Shown: piece by piece, positions 3,835 through 11,369 of the stretch
Layout of the letters: each line of letters opens with the position of its first letter
How positions within the stretch are numbered: position 1 is the first letter of the stretch
Virus record (IMG/VR): IMGVR_UViG_3300037502_000728
Span: 1 to 31,828 of that record
DNA length: 31,828 nt
Source of the DNA: a virus
Strand: one strand, 5' to 3'
Translations under genes and position numbers: made by a program
Notes under the pieces: model-generated
What the model was told of the DNA's origin: nothing
Database searches by the model: none
The model's input: the letters and a program-made list of their open reading frames with translations, nothing else

Positions 3835-6800
3835 TTAGACAAGCGAATGCTTCAATAACTTGTTTGAAGTTTCATTACCGTCACTTAATTGAGCAATGAC
3901 TTGATCCAATTTAGAAGCCATCATTCCGTAAATTTCCATATTAGACGCTATTATTTCTTTACTCATATCTGAACCTGATTCAGATTTTGACCCTGTAACC
4001 TGACTCATCATTTCTTTACCTTCATTAGATTCTGCTTGTGTTTTTGCTAACTTCATTAATATAGATTCAGTATCTAATGGGGCTGTAATTTCTAGTCCAT
4101 GATGCTCAACTGGATAACCAGTTTCGGGTCCGTCCGCAATCAGTCCACCTGATGCCTGCATAACTCGTTCATCTCTGCCGCCGGCGCTTGGCATTTTTGC
4201 AGAATACATTGCAACTTTTTGCAATACTTCTCCGCCTAAATAACCTTGACCCGGTTTAATTGCAGTACCTGCGATCTGACTTGTTGCTAATAATTGCGCT
4301 TGTTCAGCACTCATGCCTCCCTTAGCATCAAGTCCAAGTTTGCCGGCCATACTTGACTGACCCTTTTGCATGTACCATGCAACAACTTCACTTGCTATTT
4401 TAGGATCATTTACTAAATCTGGATTCTCAATTAATCTATCATCACCAAATATTGCTTTACTTGCGGCAGCATAATTGTTTTTACCAGTCAGCTGTATATA
4501 ACCACGACCTCTGAATTTCCATCCATCGCCGGGCTCAGAGTTGCCCATACCCTTACCAAGTTTAGTACCCGAACCATAAACAGCCTCAGCCATCTTTTCG
4601 GGACTTGATTTCATTTCAGTAATTTCTTCGTCTGTCTTACCTGCTGTAGCAGACTTAAATATGCTTCTTATGCGTTCATTACTTGTTTTACTATAGTTAA
4701 GATTTTCGTTTGTTACCTTACCACCAGACTCTTTCATTACATTACCTAATACAGCGTTAATGTAATTTTGGTCTGTCATTCCGCGTTTCTTCAACGCTTC
4801 AGCAATGCCTCCAAGATTTTCTTTTACATCTTGTTTCATTGGTGGAGGTGCAGCAGGCATACTTGGTGGCATACCGCTCATGATTGGTTTACCACTACCA
4901 TCAGTTACCGCACCGCCGGTTCCTGATGTTACTGCACCAGGTGGTGGAACTGCGCCTGCTACGGCTGAAGCCTGTGTATCTTTAAGTTGACTTCTTATTT
5001 TACCAATATCAATTAAAGCACTACCCAAAACACCCTTAATTTGGTCTTTGACTTCTTTTGTAGCATCTTCAGGACTTACTTCATCTAATGTGCCTTTAAT
5101 TAAACTGTCAAATTTAGTAAAGTTAATAGTCAAGTTGGCTAATGATTTGTTTGATATATCCAACATTTGTTGGAATTGTCTTAAACTATCATTAACTGTT
5201 TTAAGTCCGTCTTGTTCAGTTTTAATTTTACCTTCAGCATGTTTGGCTAATCTTTCTTCAGCCATCTTTCTAACATCTTCTATCCTAGACTCAGGTGAAG
5301 CAGCCGTTGCAGCGGCCATAGCCGGTAACATAGAAGGCTGCTCAATTGGTGCTTTTGGCTTGTTTGGTTCTACTTTCTTTTCTTCTGTTGTCTTTTTATC
5401 TTCAACTTTTTTATCGGCTTCTACGGGTTTTTTCTCTTCAACTTTCTTAGCGGCTTCTGCGGTCTTTTTGTCTGCGGTGTCTGACATTTTAGAAATGCCG
5501 GTTGCTGCCACTTTACCTACAGCCTCACCGCCTTTACTGCCTAACCATCCGCCTAATGCTGCACCTAATGCGCCTCCAATTAATGTACCTACTACTGGAA
5601 CAACGGAACCTATTGCGGCGCCAGCTGCGGCGCCTGCCCATGCACCACCTGCGGCACCTGCTGCTGATCCTACACCACCGCCTACTGCTTCAGTTTTCTT
5701 TTCTTTAGCCTCTTTTTCAGTAATCTCGCCTGCTTTGCGCTTTTGTTCTATATCCTGATATTCGTCATATGCACCCTTGGCTGCTAATCCTGCTCCAATC
5801 ACCGCTCCTGCTACTGGAACAGCCTTAGAAGCACTTGCTAAAGGTGTTGCTAATTTTGCAAGAGTTCCTGTTGCTTTTGCAGCCGTACTTGCGGCGCCCT
5901 TTGCCGCTTCTGTTGCGCCTGCTGCCTTTCCAGGCAACATACTTCCTACTTTACCTAATGCAGCCTTTCCTGCCATTGCAGTTAATGCAGCGGCTGCTAT
6001 ACCTGCTGCTGTTGCAAGTCCTGTAGCCGCAATAGTAGTAACATTAAATCCTTGCATTAACGGATTAGTTGCTAATACTAATTTGTCTAAGGCAACTTGG
6101 GCTGAACGTTCTGTTTCTGCTAACTTAGCACGTGCATCTTGTGCCGGATCTTTTCCGGGCTGTTGCGCAGCCGCTATCTTTGCCCTAGAGGCTTCGTCTT
6201 CTTTTTGTACGTTTTGATCTCTGCGCTTGTTATAATTTTCTAATGCTTGTTCACTAATACCAAAAGCACTAGCGGCTTCCTTACTATATTGAGCAGCAAC
6301 ACCTACGTTTTCAATAGTTTGGCCAAACTTCTTATTATATGCGTCTTGGAATTCTGCTTGTGCCTTTTGTACGTCACCACCTTTTTGAATAGCATTACGT
6401 AGTTTTTGTAGGTCTTCCATAAGACCCATACGTGTAAGTGCTGCGCCTTCTTCTTGGCTAACAGCACCTGTTGCTAAGAATTGTCTTGCACCTTTAGTTA
6501 CTACTTCATTACCAAAACTTGAAATGCTATCTAATACTGCTCGTTGGTCTTTAGCCTGTTTTCTAAAAGCAGCCGCTTCTTCAGTACGACCTTCACTTTC
6601 AGCCTTACGTGCTTTATTTTCTAATTGAATCTGAGAAATTTGCCATTCAACTGAACGTGCTGCTTCCGCTTGTCTCTTCTTAATAGTTTCAACATCTTCA
6701 CCGGATACTTTTGCTAGTACTAATAAATTTTCTGTATATTCTAATGATGCACGTTTTAATGCATCACGGTCTTTTATTTCAGCACGTAAATTTGCGCCTG

Positions 6801-7563
6801 CGGCTGATTGTAATGCAACGTAGTCCGCAGTGTTTTGCATTAACTCTTCTTGGCTTACACCAAGACGTTGCATTGCCATACGCTGTTCTTTAGAGACAGC
6901 GTTCATATTTCCAAATGCTTTTATACTCTCGTCAGCGTTGTCTCCCAAGATCATCATACGTGATCCTAAGGATTGTAACGGTTTCATCATAACATCTAGA
7001 TTTTTAGATGTTAGACCTGCACGATGCCCCATCTCCAATAATTCTTTTGCAGTTTGACCACCTGCACCACCCATCTTAGATAATTGGTCATTTGCTTTTA
7101 ATACATTATCGGTTTGCTGAAATGCGGCATTTGCCAGCATTGTCATGCCTTTGATAGTGGCCCCTATTGCGGTGCCTAATATTCCAAAGTTTTTACCTAA
7201 ATTTAGGGCCGCATCGCCCACACTATCAAGCGTTCTACCGTACTTTGCAAAATTCTTTTCAGTAGTTAATAATGCATTCCCTAAAGATTTTACTGCATCT
7301 ATACTTTGATTAACTGCTAATCTTTCACGTGCCTTTGCTTCATTATATTTTTCTATGGCTTCTGCGGCCAATTCTTCTTGTCTAGTTCTAACAGTTGTAC
7401 GGTCTATTGACGCATTGGTAGCGTCACGCATCTTTCTTTGTGAATCAGCAGACCCGTCAGCGGCTTTGGTACTCCTACCCATGGCCTCGGCGTTTTCACG
7501 CATTGCGTCTGCAAGTTGTTTCATCGCCTCAGAGAGTTCAGGTGGAATATTATTTTCAGCCAT
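3835..7563 (-). CDS. Tape-measure protein with GH19 muralytic domain
   Basis: 1242 aa, the length and make-up of a tail tape-measure protein, which sets tail length and fills the tube. Residues 1-480 are largely helical and charged. Residues about 490-690 are Ala/Gly-rich with hydrophobic stretches that could insert in membrane during ejection. Residues about 690-745 are a Lys/Glu/Pro linker. Residues about 915-1125 form a GH19 chitinase/lysozyme-like domain containing GDGWKFRGRGYIQLTG, with candidate catalytic glutamates in MKESGG (about 945) and NSEPGDG (about 1008). This domain would cut peptidoglycan as the tail passes the cell wall. T4 gp29 is 590 aa and has no such domain. The gene lies upstream of the portal and is divergent from the gp26-like hub gene, with a late box at 7587-7594 upstream. 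Confidence 0.85.
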   Translation of the reverse strand: MAENNIPPELSEAMKQLADAMRENAEAMGRSTKAADGSADSQRKMRDATNASIDRTTVRTRQEELAAEAIEKYNEAKARERLAVNQSIDAVKSLGNALLTTEKNFAKYGRTLDSVGDAALNLGKNFGILGTAIGATIKGMTMLANAAFQQTDNVLKANDQLSKMGGAGGQTAKELLEMGHRAGLTSKNLDVMMKPLQSLGSRMMILGDNADESIKAFGNMNAVSKEQRMAMQRLGVSQEELMQNTADYVALQSAAGANLRAEIKDRDALKRASLEYTENLLVLAKVSGEDVETIKKRQAEAARSVEWQISQIQLENKARKAESEGRTEEAAAFRKQAKDQRAVLDSISSFGNEVVTKGARQFLATGAVSQEEGAALTRMGLMEDLQKLRNAIQKGGDVQKAQAEFQDAYNKKFGQTIENVGVAAQYSKEAASAFGISEQALENYNKRRDQNVQKEDEASRAKIAAAQQPGKDPAQDARAKLAETERSAQVALDKLVLATNPLMQGFNVTTIAATGLATAAGIAAAALTAMAGKAALGKVGSMLPGKAAGATEAAKGAASTAAKATGTLAKLATPLASASKAVPVAGAVIGAGLAAKGAYDEYQDIEQKRKAGEITEKEAKEKKTEAVGGGVGSAAGAAGGAWAGAAAGAAIGSVVPVVGTLIGGALGAALGGWLGSKGGEAVGKVAATGISKMSDTADKKTAEAAKKVEEKKPVEADKKVEDKKTTEEKKVEPNKPKAPIEQPSMLPAMAAATAASPESRIEDVRKMAEERLAKHAEGKIKTEQDGLKTVNDSLRQFQQMLDISNKSLANLTINFTKFDSLIKGTLDEVSPEDATKEVKDQIKGVLGSALIDIGKIRSQLKDTQASAVAGAVPPPGAVTSGTGGAVTDGSGKPIMSGMPPSMPAAPPPMKQDVKENLGGIAEALKKRGMTDQNYINAVLGNVMKESGGKVTNENLNYSKTSNERIRSIFKSATAGKTDEEITEMKSSPEKMAEAVYGSGTKLGKGMGNSEPGDGWKFRGRGYIQLTGKNNYAAASKAIFGDDRLIENPDLVNDPKIASEVVAWYMQKGQSSMAGKLGLDAKGGMSAEQAQLLATSQIAGTAIKPGQGYLGGEVLQKVAMYSAKMPSAGGRDERVMQASGGLIADGPETGYPVEHHGLEITAPLDTESILMKLAKTQAESNEGKEMMSQVTGSKSESGSDMSKEIIASNMEIYGMMASKLDQVIAQLSDGNETSNKLLKHSLV

Positions 7564-7572
7564 TTTTTATCC

Positions 7573-7580
7573 AATAAATA
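7573..7580 (+). promoter_or_regulatory. Late promoter for gp26/gp51 unit
   Basis: The plus strand reads AATAAATAC. It forms the left arm of a near-perfect palindrome with the minus-strand late box, and gives a leader of about 47 nt with AGAGGA 6 nt before the ATG at 7633. Confidence 0.6.
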
Positions 7581-7586
7581 CACTTG

Positions 7587-7594
7587 TATTTATT
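7587..7594 (-). promoter_or_regulatory. Late promoter for tape-measure/portal unit
   Basis: The minus strand reads AATAAATAC, the right arm of the palindrome at 7573-7594, and gives a leader of about 18 nt to the tape-measure ATG. Confidence 0.6.
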
Positions 7595-7632
7595 ATTCGG
7601 AAAAACCCGAAATTTTAACCAGAGGATAATTT

Positions 7633-8463
7633 ATGGATTCAGTCAATAACCCACTCAGACAGTATTTCCGTAGACCAGCAGTCTACTTAAAACTACCCAG
7701 CGGTGGGAAAGGATATACCCCTGATGTGCTTACAATTCCTGAATCAGGGGAAATTCCTGTATACCCAATGACAGCAATTGACGAAATTACTGTTAGAACA
7801 CCGGACGCATTGTTTAACGGCACTGCTATTGCAGAACTTATTAAAAGTTGTGTGCCTGACATTAAAGATCCGTGGAAAATTACTAGTGTAGACTTTGATG
7901 CAGTATTAATTGCGATTAAAGCAGCCGGTGGTACAGGTGAACTTGAAATAGAAAGTTCATGTCCAAATTGTAAAGAGGATGCAAAATATGCATTAAATCT
8001 AATGCGTGTTTTAGCCACTATGGAAGCCGGTGACTATACTAATCCATTAGTTGTCAATGAACTTCAATTTAAGTTTAGACCACTAACTTATAGAGAAATG
8101 AATGAAGCATCTTTAGGACAATTTGAAATCCAAAGGTTATTTGCATCAACTGCTCTTAAAGAAGATGATGAAGAAAAGAATGCAATCATTCAGGATGCAT
8201 ATAAAAAAGTTACTGAATTAACTATTCAATTATTAACTCAAGGCATAGAGTTTATTAAAACTCCAACAGCAATGGTTACTGAAAAAGAGTATATTTTAGA
8301 TTTTCTGAGAAATTGTGATAGAACTGCGTACATAACAGTAAGAGATCACAGTGCAGACCTCAGAATGAAAACTGAAATGAAACCTTTGGATGTAAAGTGC
8401 ATACACTGCAATCACGAATACAAACAGCCATTTACGCTTAACCCAGCAGATTTTTTCGCATAA
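7633..8463 (+). CDS. 26: Baseplate hub protein, gp26-like
   Basis: 276 aa (T4 gp26 is 208 aa), resembling the T4-type baseplate hub/assembly family. The N-terminus has LKLPSGGKGYTP and the middle has IELxxxCPNC-type residues: a CxxC pair at residues 110-113 (CPNC) and a second at 256-259 (CIHC). Together they could bind one zinc ion. The family helps assemble the central hub of the baseplate. ATG 7633 is preceded by AGAGGA and a late box. The reading frame ends GAT TTT TTC GCA TAA: the slippery heptamer T TTT TTC lies just before the stop, and a -1 shift would extend the protein by 76 residues to 351 aa. Ending in the zero frame gives this short form. The gene neighbours match the T4 order 26-51. 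Confidence 0.85.
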   Translation: MDSVNNPLRQYFRRPAVYLKLPSGGKGYTPDVLTIPESGEIPVYPMTAIDEITVRTPDALFNGTAIAELIKSCVPDIKDPWKITSVDFDAVLIAIKAAGGTGELEIESSCPNCKEDAKYALNLMRVLATMEAGDYTNPLVVNELQFKFRPLTYREMNEASLGQFEIQRLFASTALKEDDEEKNAIIQDAYKKVTELTIQLLTQGIEFIKTPTAMVTEKEYILDFLRNCDRTAYITVRDHSADLRMKTEMKPLDVKCIHCNHEYKQPFTLNPADFFA

Positions 8464-8499
8464 GGCTTCTAAGTCTCGGCCCCGAGGGGGTTCAGAAGC
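8451..8499 (+). promoter_or_regulatory. Candidate -1 ribosomal frameshift signal
   Basis: The slippery heptamer T TTT TTC (8451-8457) is in the correct phase of the gp26 frame. A 7-nt spacer holds the zero-frame stop (8461-8463). A stem then follows: GCTTCT (8465-8470) pairs with AGAAGC (8494-8499), enclosing a GC-rich inner hairpin (CTCG 8475-8478 with CGAG 8483-8486, or alternatives using the GGGGG run at 8486-8490). Heptamer, spacer and stem-loop are the three parts of a standard -1 frameshift site. The -1 frame is open from 8457 to a stop at 8685. Confidence 0.8.
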
Positions 8500-8687
8500 T
8501 GATAGAGATGTATGAAAAAGAAGTGGGGAATATAAAAAAGACAGCCATATCCTATGCCTGGTACCTTAGAGGTGGTGTTTCATATGAGGATATACTTAAT
8601 ATGTCCTCAGAAGAAAGAACTTATATTGGTGAATTGATAGAAAATAATTTAGAAATCACTAAAAAATCTAATATGCCTTTCTTCTAA
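8457..8687 (+). CDS. gp51-position frame, read by -1 frameshift from gp26
   Basis: 76 codons in the -1 frame relative to gp26, open right through the frameshift point, beginning RIRLLSLGPEGVQKLIEMYE and ending KSNMPFF. The core (KTAISYAWYLRGGVSYEDIL, then SSEERTYIGELIENN) is a helical segment resembling short frames found after gene 26 in marine T4-like phages. An internal ATG at 8508 could give a separate 59 aa protein, but no good ribosome site precedes it, and protein-like sequence continues upstream of it. The likely main route is therefore fusion to gp26. The arrangement mirrors the G/GT tail assembly chaperones of lambda, made by -1 frameshifting. T4 gp51 is 249 aa, so homology to it is not claimed. 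Confidence 0.75.
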   Translation, partial: RIRLLSLGPEGVQKLIEMYEKEVGNIKKTAISYAWYLRGGVSYEDILNMSSEERTYIGELIENNLEITKKSNMPFF

Positions 8688-8705
8688 GTTGTCCTTCGGA
8701 CAACT
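8687..8705 (+). terminator. Hairpin at end of gp26/gp51 unit
   Basis: AGTTGTCC (8687-8694) pairs perfectly with GGACAACT (8698-8705) around a TTC loop, starting at the stop codon itself. There is no U-run directly after; it probably works together with the next hairpin. Confidence 0.5.
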
Positions 8706-8760
8706 AATACCTTCACTAGTACTCGTTTCACTCGTACTACGTTCGGTATTATTTTATTTC
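8705..8760 (+). terminator. Rho-independent terminator of plus-strand hub unit
   Basis: The outer stem TAATACC (8705-8711) pairs with GGTATTA (8745-8751), and an inner stem AGTAC (8718-8722) pairs with GTACT (8734-8738). A T-rich tail (ATTTTATTT) follows. This fits termination of the gp26/gp51 transcript before the convergent operon. Confidence 0.6.
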
Positions 8761-9733: not shown

Positions 9734-10855
9734 TTAATTGGTTAGATACCCTACGCTATAACTTTCGTCGGATACAGAACATTTATTACACTTCTCCTCG
9801 CATTCTATGAATGCTTTATCGGGCGATTTGAAACTGTTAAACAGTTTATCCCAAATATCATCGTTGACAATCTCTTCTAGTGTGCGTGATTTAATATTCA
9901 TTAAGTCAGCATACTTACGAAATAAACTGTCTTGTCCTTTTATTTTCTTCCCTGTTATGAAACTTTCACGTTCATAATACGGAGCCGCTACCCAACTACA
10001 TGGGTAAATCTGTCCGTCAGCATTAAGATAAAGACCGCGATTACCAATCATGCATAGTGGAATCACATAATCATCTTTGTATTCACTTACAATCTCTATC
10101 CATTTTTTCTTATTTGTGTCAAGGTAATTTTGATTGTTTAATACTCTATCACTTAGTGGTATACTATAACGCTCATATCTACCTGACTTACTGATAAACT
10201 CGCTTCTAGGTTCTAAACTATCATAATTATCATCAGTATTGTAAGTACCGAATCTACTTCCAAACTTAATACTTTTAGTAATTTGCAGACTATCACATCC
10301 ATATGCCTTAGCCATGTCTTGTATATTTTGCAAATGATCCTGATTGAAACTGAATACAATAGTAGCCCATGTGACATGAGCCTTTTTATTTGTAGTTACT
10401 GTAGTCAATCCTTCTATGATACTGTCCCAATTGCTGTTAACTCTATACAAATTATTGCTAGCGTTATCATATCCGTCAATACTGAAAGCAATAGTGTCAC
10501 GTTCATTTGATAACTCACGGAACTCTTCCCACCATTCTTTCTTTTTATAACTACCGTTAGTAATTGTATAGATGTGAATGTTTGGATTGGTTTCTTTTAC
10601 ATATCTGCAAATTGCTAGATAGTCTTTGCAGTATATAGGATCACCTACATCACCACACATTGTTAATCGTTGAACTTGTGTCTTTAGTAACTCTTCGCTA
10701 AAGCACTTTTTAAATAAGTCTAATGTTAATTCTTTTTGTAGCCAGGGAATATCTTTTGGCATTTCTGTTCTAGGGCATCGAGGACATTTAACCGCACATT
10801 TACTGCTAGGTTCAATATGCCAATGATAAAACTGAAAGCCATACTTATTTTTCAT
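9734..10855 (-). CDS. Radical SAM protein with SPASM-like C-terminus
   Basis: 373 aa. The N-terminal Cys20-x3-Cys24-x2-Cys27 motif (CAVKCPRC) is the radical SAM cluster that binds a 4Fe-4S centre and S-adenosylmethionine. A GDVGDP segment at about residues 69-74 fits the glycine-rich SAM site, and FSIDGYDN matches the barrel of this family. The C-terminal region has further cysteines (CMIGNRG, YPCSW, CEEKCNKC), as in SPASM/twitch auxiliary-cluster domains that modify peptides or small molecules. The substrate is unknown. The gene overlaps the dehydrogenase-like gene by 11 nt, so the two are probably made together. Radical SAM genes of unknown role occur in marine T4-like phages, but their placement directly behind 46/47 is notable. 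Confidence 0.8.
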   Translation of the reverse strand: MKNKYGFQFYHWHIEPSSKCAVKCPRCPRTEMPKDIPWLQKELTLDLFKKCFSEELLKTQVQRLTMCGDVGDPIYCKDYLAICRYVKETNPNIHIYTITNGSYKKKEWWEEFRELSNERDTIAFSIDGYDNASNNLYRVNSNWDSIIEGLTTVTTNKKAHVTWATIVFSFNQDHLQNIQDMAKAYGCDSLQITKSIKFGSRFGTYNTDDNYDSLEPRSEFISKSGRYERYSIPLSDRVLNNQNYLDTNKKKWIEIVSEYKDDYVIPLCMIGNRGLYLNADGQIYPCSWVAAPYYERESFITGKKIKGQDSLFRKYADLMNIKSRTLEEIVNDDIWDKLFNSFKSPDKAFIECEEKCNKCSVSDESYSVGYLTN

Positions 10856-11369
10856 ACACTGTTAATTCTTTCACAAAAGAATTGTACATAACATATCTAA
10901 CTGCCCTAGCAACTTCAACTGGATTCATTTTAGGTACATCTAAATGTTTAATCATCTCAGTATCAGTTGCACCTGGTACAACAAGTGCTAGTCTACATCT
11001 ATGTGGTTGTTTGACTAACTTTCTAAATGTATCACGCAATGCTCGTTTATGGTCACGATATGGCCAAGGCTGATCGTCCAACTCACGTTCTAGTCTGGGA
11101 TAGTCAGTTACAATACTACCTATGCTAATGATTGTTTTATTAGTATCTTTCCATTCATTATAGAATGCTTCTAATAAATCACGTTGATAGAACCCATCGT
11201 ATGCATTATTAATAAAGATATCTGCATCTTTACCCGCATCTAGTATCTTTTGAATGTCAGAAATTTCATATCCATTGGATTTGCTTAATCCAATTATAAT
11301 ATTTCCTTTAAGATTATCAGTAATTGCTTTACCGATTCCCCTTGTATGTCCTGTTATTGCGATTTTCAT
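10845..11369 (-). CDS. Short-chain dehydrogenase/reductase-like protein
   Basis: 174 aa. It opens MKIAITGHTRGIGKAITDNL, the TGxxxGxG NAD(P)-binding turn of classical short-chain dehydrogenases. INNAYD matches the NNAG motif, and the catalytic set appears intact: Ser in SIGSIV, then Tyr and Lys in YRDHK (YxxxK). Classical members are about 250 aa, so this is a compact form lacking part of the usual length, yet no key motif is lost. It probably oxidises or reduces a small metabolite; the substrate is unknown. Its start overlaps the gp46 stop by 4 nt (ATGA) and its end overlaps the radical SAM gene by 11 nt, indicating coupled translation. The pair may act in one pathway, which is inference. Confidence 0.75.
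   Translation of the reverse strand: MKIAITGHTRGIGKAITDNLKGNIIIGLSKSNGYEISDIQKILDAGKDADIFINNAYDGFYQRDLLEAFYNEWKDTNKTIISIGSIVTDYPRLERELDDQPWPYRDHKRALRDTFRKLVKQPHRCRLALVVPGATDTEMIKHLDVPKMNPVEVARAVRYVMYNSFVKELTVYEK

Follow-up and report, generated by a model that had tools for sequence, protein, structure and literature searches.

Reading frames and protein products of the locus

We analysed a 31,828-nt window, the whole of virus record IMGVR_UViG_3300037502_000728. The T4-type structural and replication genes of this 31.8-kb record specify a portal, a tape measure protein, baseplate wedge and hub proteins, nucleases resembling gp46/47, and a late sigma factor. On the plus strand, a gp26-like ORF (7633–8463) encodes a 276-aa protein of family PF12322 (T4_baseplate), predicted to be the 0-frame tail assembly chaperone TAC-N, and the sequence AGAGGA at 7621–7626 (+) is its probable ribosome site. 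The protein scored 46 bits against PF12322 (curated Pfam cut-off, 24.5) and 2e-12 against PHROG 150.

The 3' end of the ORF reads GAT TTT TTC GCA TAA. As the first-pass annotation had stated, the slippery heptamer T TTT TTC (8451–8457, +) is in the gp26 phase and just ahead of the stop; the 0-frame TAA (8461–8463, +) lies 3 nt past it. A -1 slip would continue with CGC ATA AGG... to a TAA at 8685–8687. The -1 frame extension (8457–8687, +) comprises 76 codons plus the stop, is predicted to be the C-terminal domain of TAC-NC, and would give a protein reading F-F-R-I-R-L-L... after the slip. The frames thus bear out the products proposed earlier, a 276-aa protein and a 351-aa fusion. The predicted fusion-specific tryptic peptide is QPFTLNPADFFR, and the predicted C-terminal peptide of the short form is QPFTLNPADFFA. 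The first ATG in the -1 frame (8508–8510, +) is probably not a start codon; it is unconserved, has conserved residues upstream and, in agreement with the initial observation, is preceded by no Shine-Dalgarno-like sequence.

Structure prediction (AF2) gave a model of the gp26-like protein with a pLDDT of 88, and the extension was confidently modelled as a helical domain (pLDDT 90). Two Cys pairs in the gp26-like protein, C110/C113 and C256/C259, were invariant. Of the 107 residues of 2ob9, the tail assembly chaperone of HK97, 102 could be aligned with the predicted gp26 fold; the Z score of 5.7 is weak and lies in the noise range. A Foldseek search of PDB folds with the gp26 model returned no significant match. 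Searching PDB sequences with the short protein and the extension gave no match, a structure search with the extension model found no viral match, and the window extension matched no PHROG or Pfam family. Profile comparison of the extension with the C-domains of T4-like gp51 (PHROG 634) gave a moderate hit (hhalign E 1.5e-4, probability 52%), and a PHROG 634 search of the jumbo-phage extensions returned no match.

The divergent neighbour of the gp26-like gene (3835–7563, -; 1242 aa) is a tape measure protein candidate with an endolysin-like part and the presumed client of the chaperone. It matched tape measure family PHROG 794 (4e-15) and endolysin family PHROG 181 (1e-34), the latter at approximately residues 670–1068. 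Its homologue had the same position and orientation in 20 relatives. Between the two genes lie back-to-back ATAAATA motifs resembling late promoters (7574–7593; + strand, 7574–7580; - strand, 7587–7593). Of 62 relatives, 34 had ATAAATA on each strand, where 0.2 were expected, a pattern which suggests that the expression of chaperone and client may be linked late in infection.

Slip site, coding selection and RNA structure among relatives

We fetched 80 viral contigs that encode related proteins; together with the window, they collapsed to 63 distinct sequences. The string TTTTTTCG was found at the slip site in all 63, the window included. Extensions were 76 aa long in 61 of the 62 complete relatives and 77 aa in the remaining one, and the 0-frame stop lay 3 nt from the heptamer in 46 relatives and 12 nt in 17. 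Under a null model that draws on 0-frame codon usage and leaves the amino acids unchanged, the probability of finding xxT TTT TTC in all 38 groups (defined by less than 75% identity in the extension) was ~1e-37, a value that is overstated because shared ancestry is ignored, although its direction is not in doubt. The alignment of relatives that the first-pass annotation had proposed as a check thus supported it for the heptamer, the stem and the open -1 frame, and no relative of the frameshift type lacked the heptamer and carried -1 stops. At the loci with the 12-nt stop distance (L024, L025, L056 and others), the end of the short protein lies four codons later, for example at GCC GCC TCC stop.

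We found that the -1 frame is under coding selection from the heptamer onward. Over extension codons 1–17, from the heptamer to the ATG at 8508, pN/pS in the near group was 0.54 in the -1 frame, compared with 0.88 in frame 0 and 1.30 in frame +1; after this ATG, it was 0.36, compared with at least 0.88 in the other frames. All 61 full-length extensions were free of -1 stops from the heptamer on and contained frame-0 stops. The earlier view that the -1 frame is open from 8457 and protein-like ahead of the ATG therefore held. The motif FFRxRLL, directly after the slip, was conserved in the -1 frame, and three relatives (L002, L003 and L008) had no ATG, GTG or TTG within the first 32 extension codons.

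A stem-loop that is probably a frameshift stimulator (8464–8500, +) follows the heptamer after a spacer of 6–7 nt. The coordinates given previously, a 7-nt spacer (8458–8464) and then a GCTTCT/AGAAGC stem, proved correct; the arms lie at 8465–8470 and 8494–8499, with an additional G.U pair at 8464–8500. In the window itself, the 76-nt stretch was ordinary relative to dinucleotide shuffles (z -0.26) and gave a z of -1.9 against synonymous shuffles. As the window's own structure is unremarkable, the case for the stem comes from the relatives.

We therefore folded the first 77 nt past the heptamer in each locus and compared them with recodings that kept the -1 frame amino acids. Of 59 loci, 58 had a lower minimum free energy than their synonymous recodings; z averaged -2.2 over the 16 near relatives and -3.0 over the 43 that are more distant. 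The helix of the near group, GGCTTCT/AGAAGC(C/T), begins 6–7 nt after the heptamer; 88% of cells were paired, and paired changes gave ACTTCT/AGAAGT (L003) and GACTC/GAGTC (L023). The same 5' arm can pair ~48 nt further on in many distant relatives; the stem partner also lies ~48 nt downstream in the loci with the 12-nt stop distance (L024, L025, L056 and others). RNAalifold found no consensus helix among the 16 near relatives. The reason is that the partner and the register of the pairing differ between groups: replacement of AAG (Lys) by AGC or AGT (Ser) moves the 3' arm by one base, so a consensus in fixed columns fails. Column-shuffle tests, with outcomes of 64/2000 and 2/2000, were applied to a helix that had been chosen from a scan, and we therefore relied on the synonymous-recoding test. 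On this sequence evidence, we take the downstream RNA to be a selected structure and a putative stimulator of frameshifting.

Occurrence in T4-like phages and interpretation

Among cultured phages, TTTTTTC with an open -1 frame was present in Atu_ph07, RaK2, PA5oct, SCTP-2, 121Q, GAP32, Hallingskeid, Phosso and Vibrio phage 2.275, and the same arrangement with the heptamer TTTTTTT was found in XacN1 and CM1. When used in a scan, the gp26 of Atu_ph07 matched no record but its own, and the gp26 of RaK2 matched its own record and two relatives. The -1 frame was also open into gp51-like sequence in KVP40, where the junction reads GAT TTT TTC GTA TAA, in the cyanophages S-PM2 and P-SSM2 (TTTTTTC), and in HTVC008M, Cr30 and phiM12 (TTTTTTT), the T run of HTVC008M being T8. 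The cyanophages thus resemble the window in having TTTTTTC at the same place, but their extension is shorter, and an ATG follows the slip site. In P-SSM2-like contigs (L114–L191), TTTTTTC with an ATG three codons later was found in 60 of 60 distinct loci, so that both a fusion and a free gp51 are possible in these phages.

T4 itself has a degenerate junction, GAG TTC TTT GAG, without a slippery heptamer. Its gp26 belongs to PF12322, and its gp51 is a full-length paralogue, with PF12322 over residues 1–201 followed by a C-terminal region that can be compared with the -1 extension. Among the phages searched, T4 carries two PF12322 genes and the other eight carry one each. The two T4 genes are separate and lie on opposite strands, in contrast to the single gene of the window with its probable frameshift. 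We consider it about an even proposition that the gp26/gp51 frameshift is ancestral and the commonest arrangement in the T4 supergroup, with T4 derived by gene duplication and the cyanophages making a free C-domain as well as the fusion.

The tail assembly chaperones of T4-like phages are, in our reading of T4, gp26 and gp51. These proteins are best read as TAC-N and TAC-NC, and the frameshift would therefore be of the lambda G/GT type. For this reason, the comparison with lambda drawn in the first-pass annotation was apt and goes beyond analogy. Its term 'hub protein' needs correction: 'baseplate hub protein' is an old label, and the protein is probably the chaperone TAC-N.

In lambda, the tape measure protein becomes coated with gpG, and recruitment of the tube protein falls to gpGT, the product of the -1 frame; this programmed -1 frameshift (Xu, Hendrix & Duda 2004) is reviewed in PMC5009743, which describes the tail-chaperone frameshift as widely conserved in long-tailed phages 'except T4'. 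The window and lambda are alike in that the chaperone gene has a slippery heptamer at its 3' end, that a short product is paired with a long one carrying an extra C-terminal domain, and that the tape measure gene is adjacent. They differ in that there is no sequence similarity, T TTT TTC replaces lambda's heptamer, the tape measure gene is divergent here and downstream in lambda, and the TAC-N of the window has zinc-ligand-like Cys pairs. The TAC-N to TAC-NC -1 frameshift in Vandenendeviridae and Andersonviridae (PMC12846349) follows the same logic, with a poly-T site (GTTTTT) and a misannotated downstream ORF, but in another phage group.

Vladimirov, Gautam & Davidson (2022, Virology 566:9) identified the TAC genes of T4-like phages and favoured a mechanism that does not involve frameshifting. 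The PRFect paper (PMC10885494), in its passage on that study, describes a short gene alongside a longer fusion gene for some T4-like phages, and PMC12846349 cites Vladimirov et al. (2022) as a source on poly-T slippery sites in the TAC-N of T4-like phages. In view of that citation, the earlier supposition that a frameshift at genes 26/51 is undescribed is doubtful. Text searches of the literature outside the full text of Vladimirov et al. (2022) returned no direct description of a gp26/gp51 frameshift. The kind of event, a -1 frameshift in a tail chaperone gene, is already known, and its occurrence in T4-like TAC-N may be in the 2022 paper, given how PMC12846349 cites it. So far as checked, what is new is a jumbo-phage family without an alternative start, the heptamer throughout its 63 sequences, the evidence of selection on the RNA structure, and the way in which the family differs from T4 and the cyanophages.

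The downstream frame could be a separate small gene whose translation needs no frameshift and starts at an ATG within it, or by reinitiation once ribosomes have terminated at the gp26 stop. Public records annotate it in this manner, since SCTP-2, GAP32, 121Q and Vibrio 2.275 list the extension as a separate hypothetical gene, although with differing starts. The ATG shortly after the slip site in all the cyanophage loci would also suit a separate gene, as would an ATGA overlap at codon 1 in ten jumbo-type loci. However, the ATG at 8508 lacks a ribosome site and sits inside conserved sequence, several relatives are start-less over their first 32 codons, FFRxRLL is conserved in the -1 frame right after the heptamer, and reinitiation has no need of an invariant heptamer. 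We therefore regard a separate gene as very improbable.

Transcriptional slippage on the T6 run, which reaches T8 in HTVC008M, could also change the frame, but we consider it very improbable. A T6 run is short for transcriptional slippage. The run is broken by C in nearly all loci and was never lengthened among the 63 sequences, and a selected RNA structure at fixed spacing suits ribosomal slippage instead. Two adjacent frames of one protein could also resemble a gene split by a recent frameshift mutation or a sequencing error. The arrangement recurs, however, in dozens of independent assemblies and in cultured phages, with selection on both sides, and this conservation refutes a split gene, to which we assign next to no probability.

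A programmed -1 frameshift, as originally proposed, is supported by the conserved heptamer, the open and selected -1 frame and the RNA structure of the family. Judged from sequence, the locus is very probably the TAC gene of a T4-related jumbo-type phage, in which a -1 slip on T TTT TTC, aided by the stem, would yield forms of 276 and 351 aa; we infer the slippage, its rate and the chaperone role of the products. Most ribosomes would stop at 8461 and produce the 276-aa gp26-like short form, while a minority would slip on the heptamer with the help of the downstream stem and produce the 351-aa form with its extra helical domain of 76 aa. By analogy with lambda G/GT, the role of the short form would be to coat the tape measure protein, and that of the rarer long form to bring in the tail tube protein.

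The window thus presents a very clean putative frameshift cassette in the distant jumbo relatives of T4, lacking an alternative start and with a heptamer common to cyanophages and KVP40, which makes the question of frameshift first and duplication in T4 directly testable. The long form is absent or misannotated in many public records; in those of RaK2 and PA5oct, the extension is unannotated. The records concerned by a missed frameshift or a separate-gene annotation are L082, L091 and L092–L098.

Sequences beyond the -1 stop

The final base of the -1 stop is also the first of an 8-bp palindrome (8687–8705, +) that likely marks the transcript end. A simple terminator scan did not call this hairpin; hairpins of at least 6 bp within 60 nt of the -1 stop were present in 34 of 62 relatives. 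Paired short palindromes follow the -1 stop in the window (8687–8760) and also in L001, L011, L024, L057, L075 and others. The first has an 8-bp stem and a 3-nt loop, for example AGTTGTCC TTC GGACAACT, and is followed by the second hairpin. The stems of these palindromes vary among loci yet pair perfectly. Farther along in the structural region, the minus strand encodes a radical SAM protein (9734–10855) beside recombination nuclease genes, and the adjoining unassigned 174-aa ORF (10845–11369) resembles a short-chain dehydrogenase by eye.
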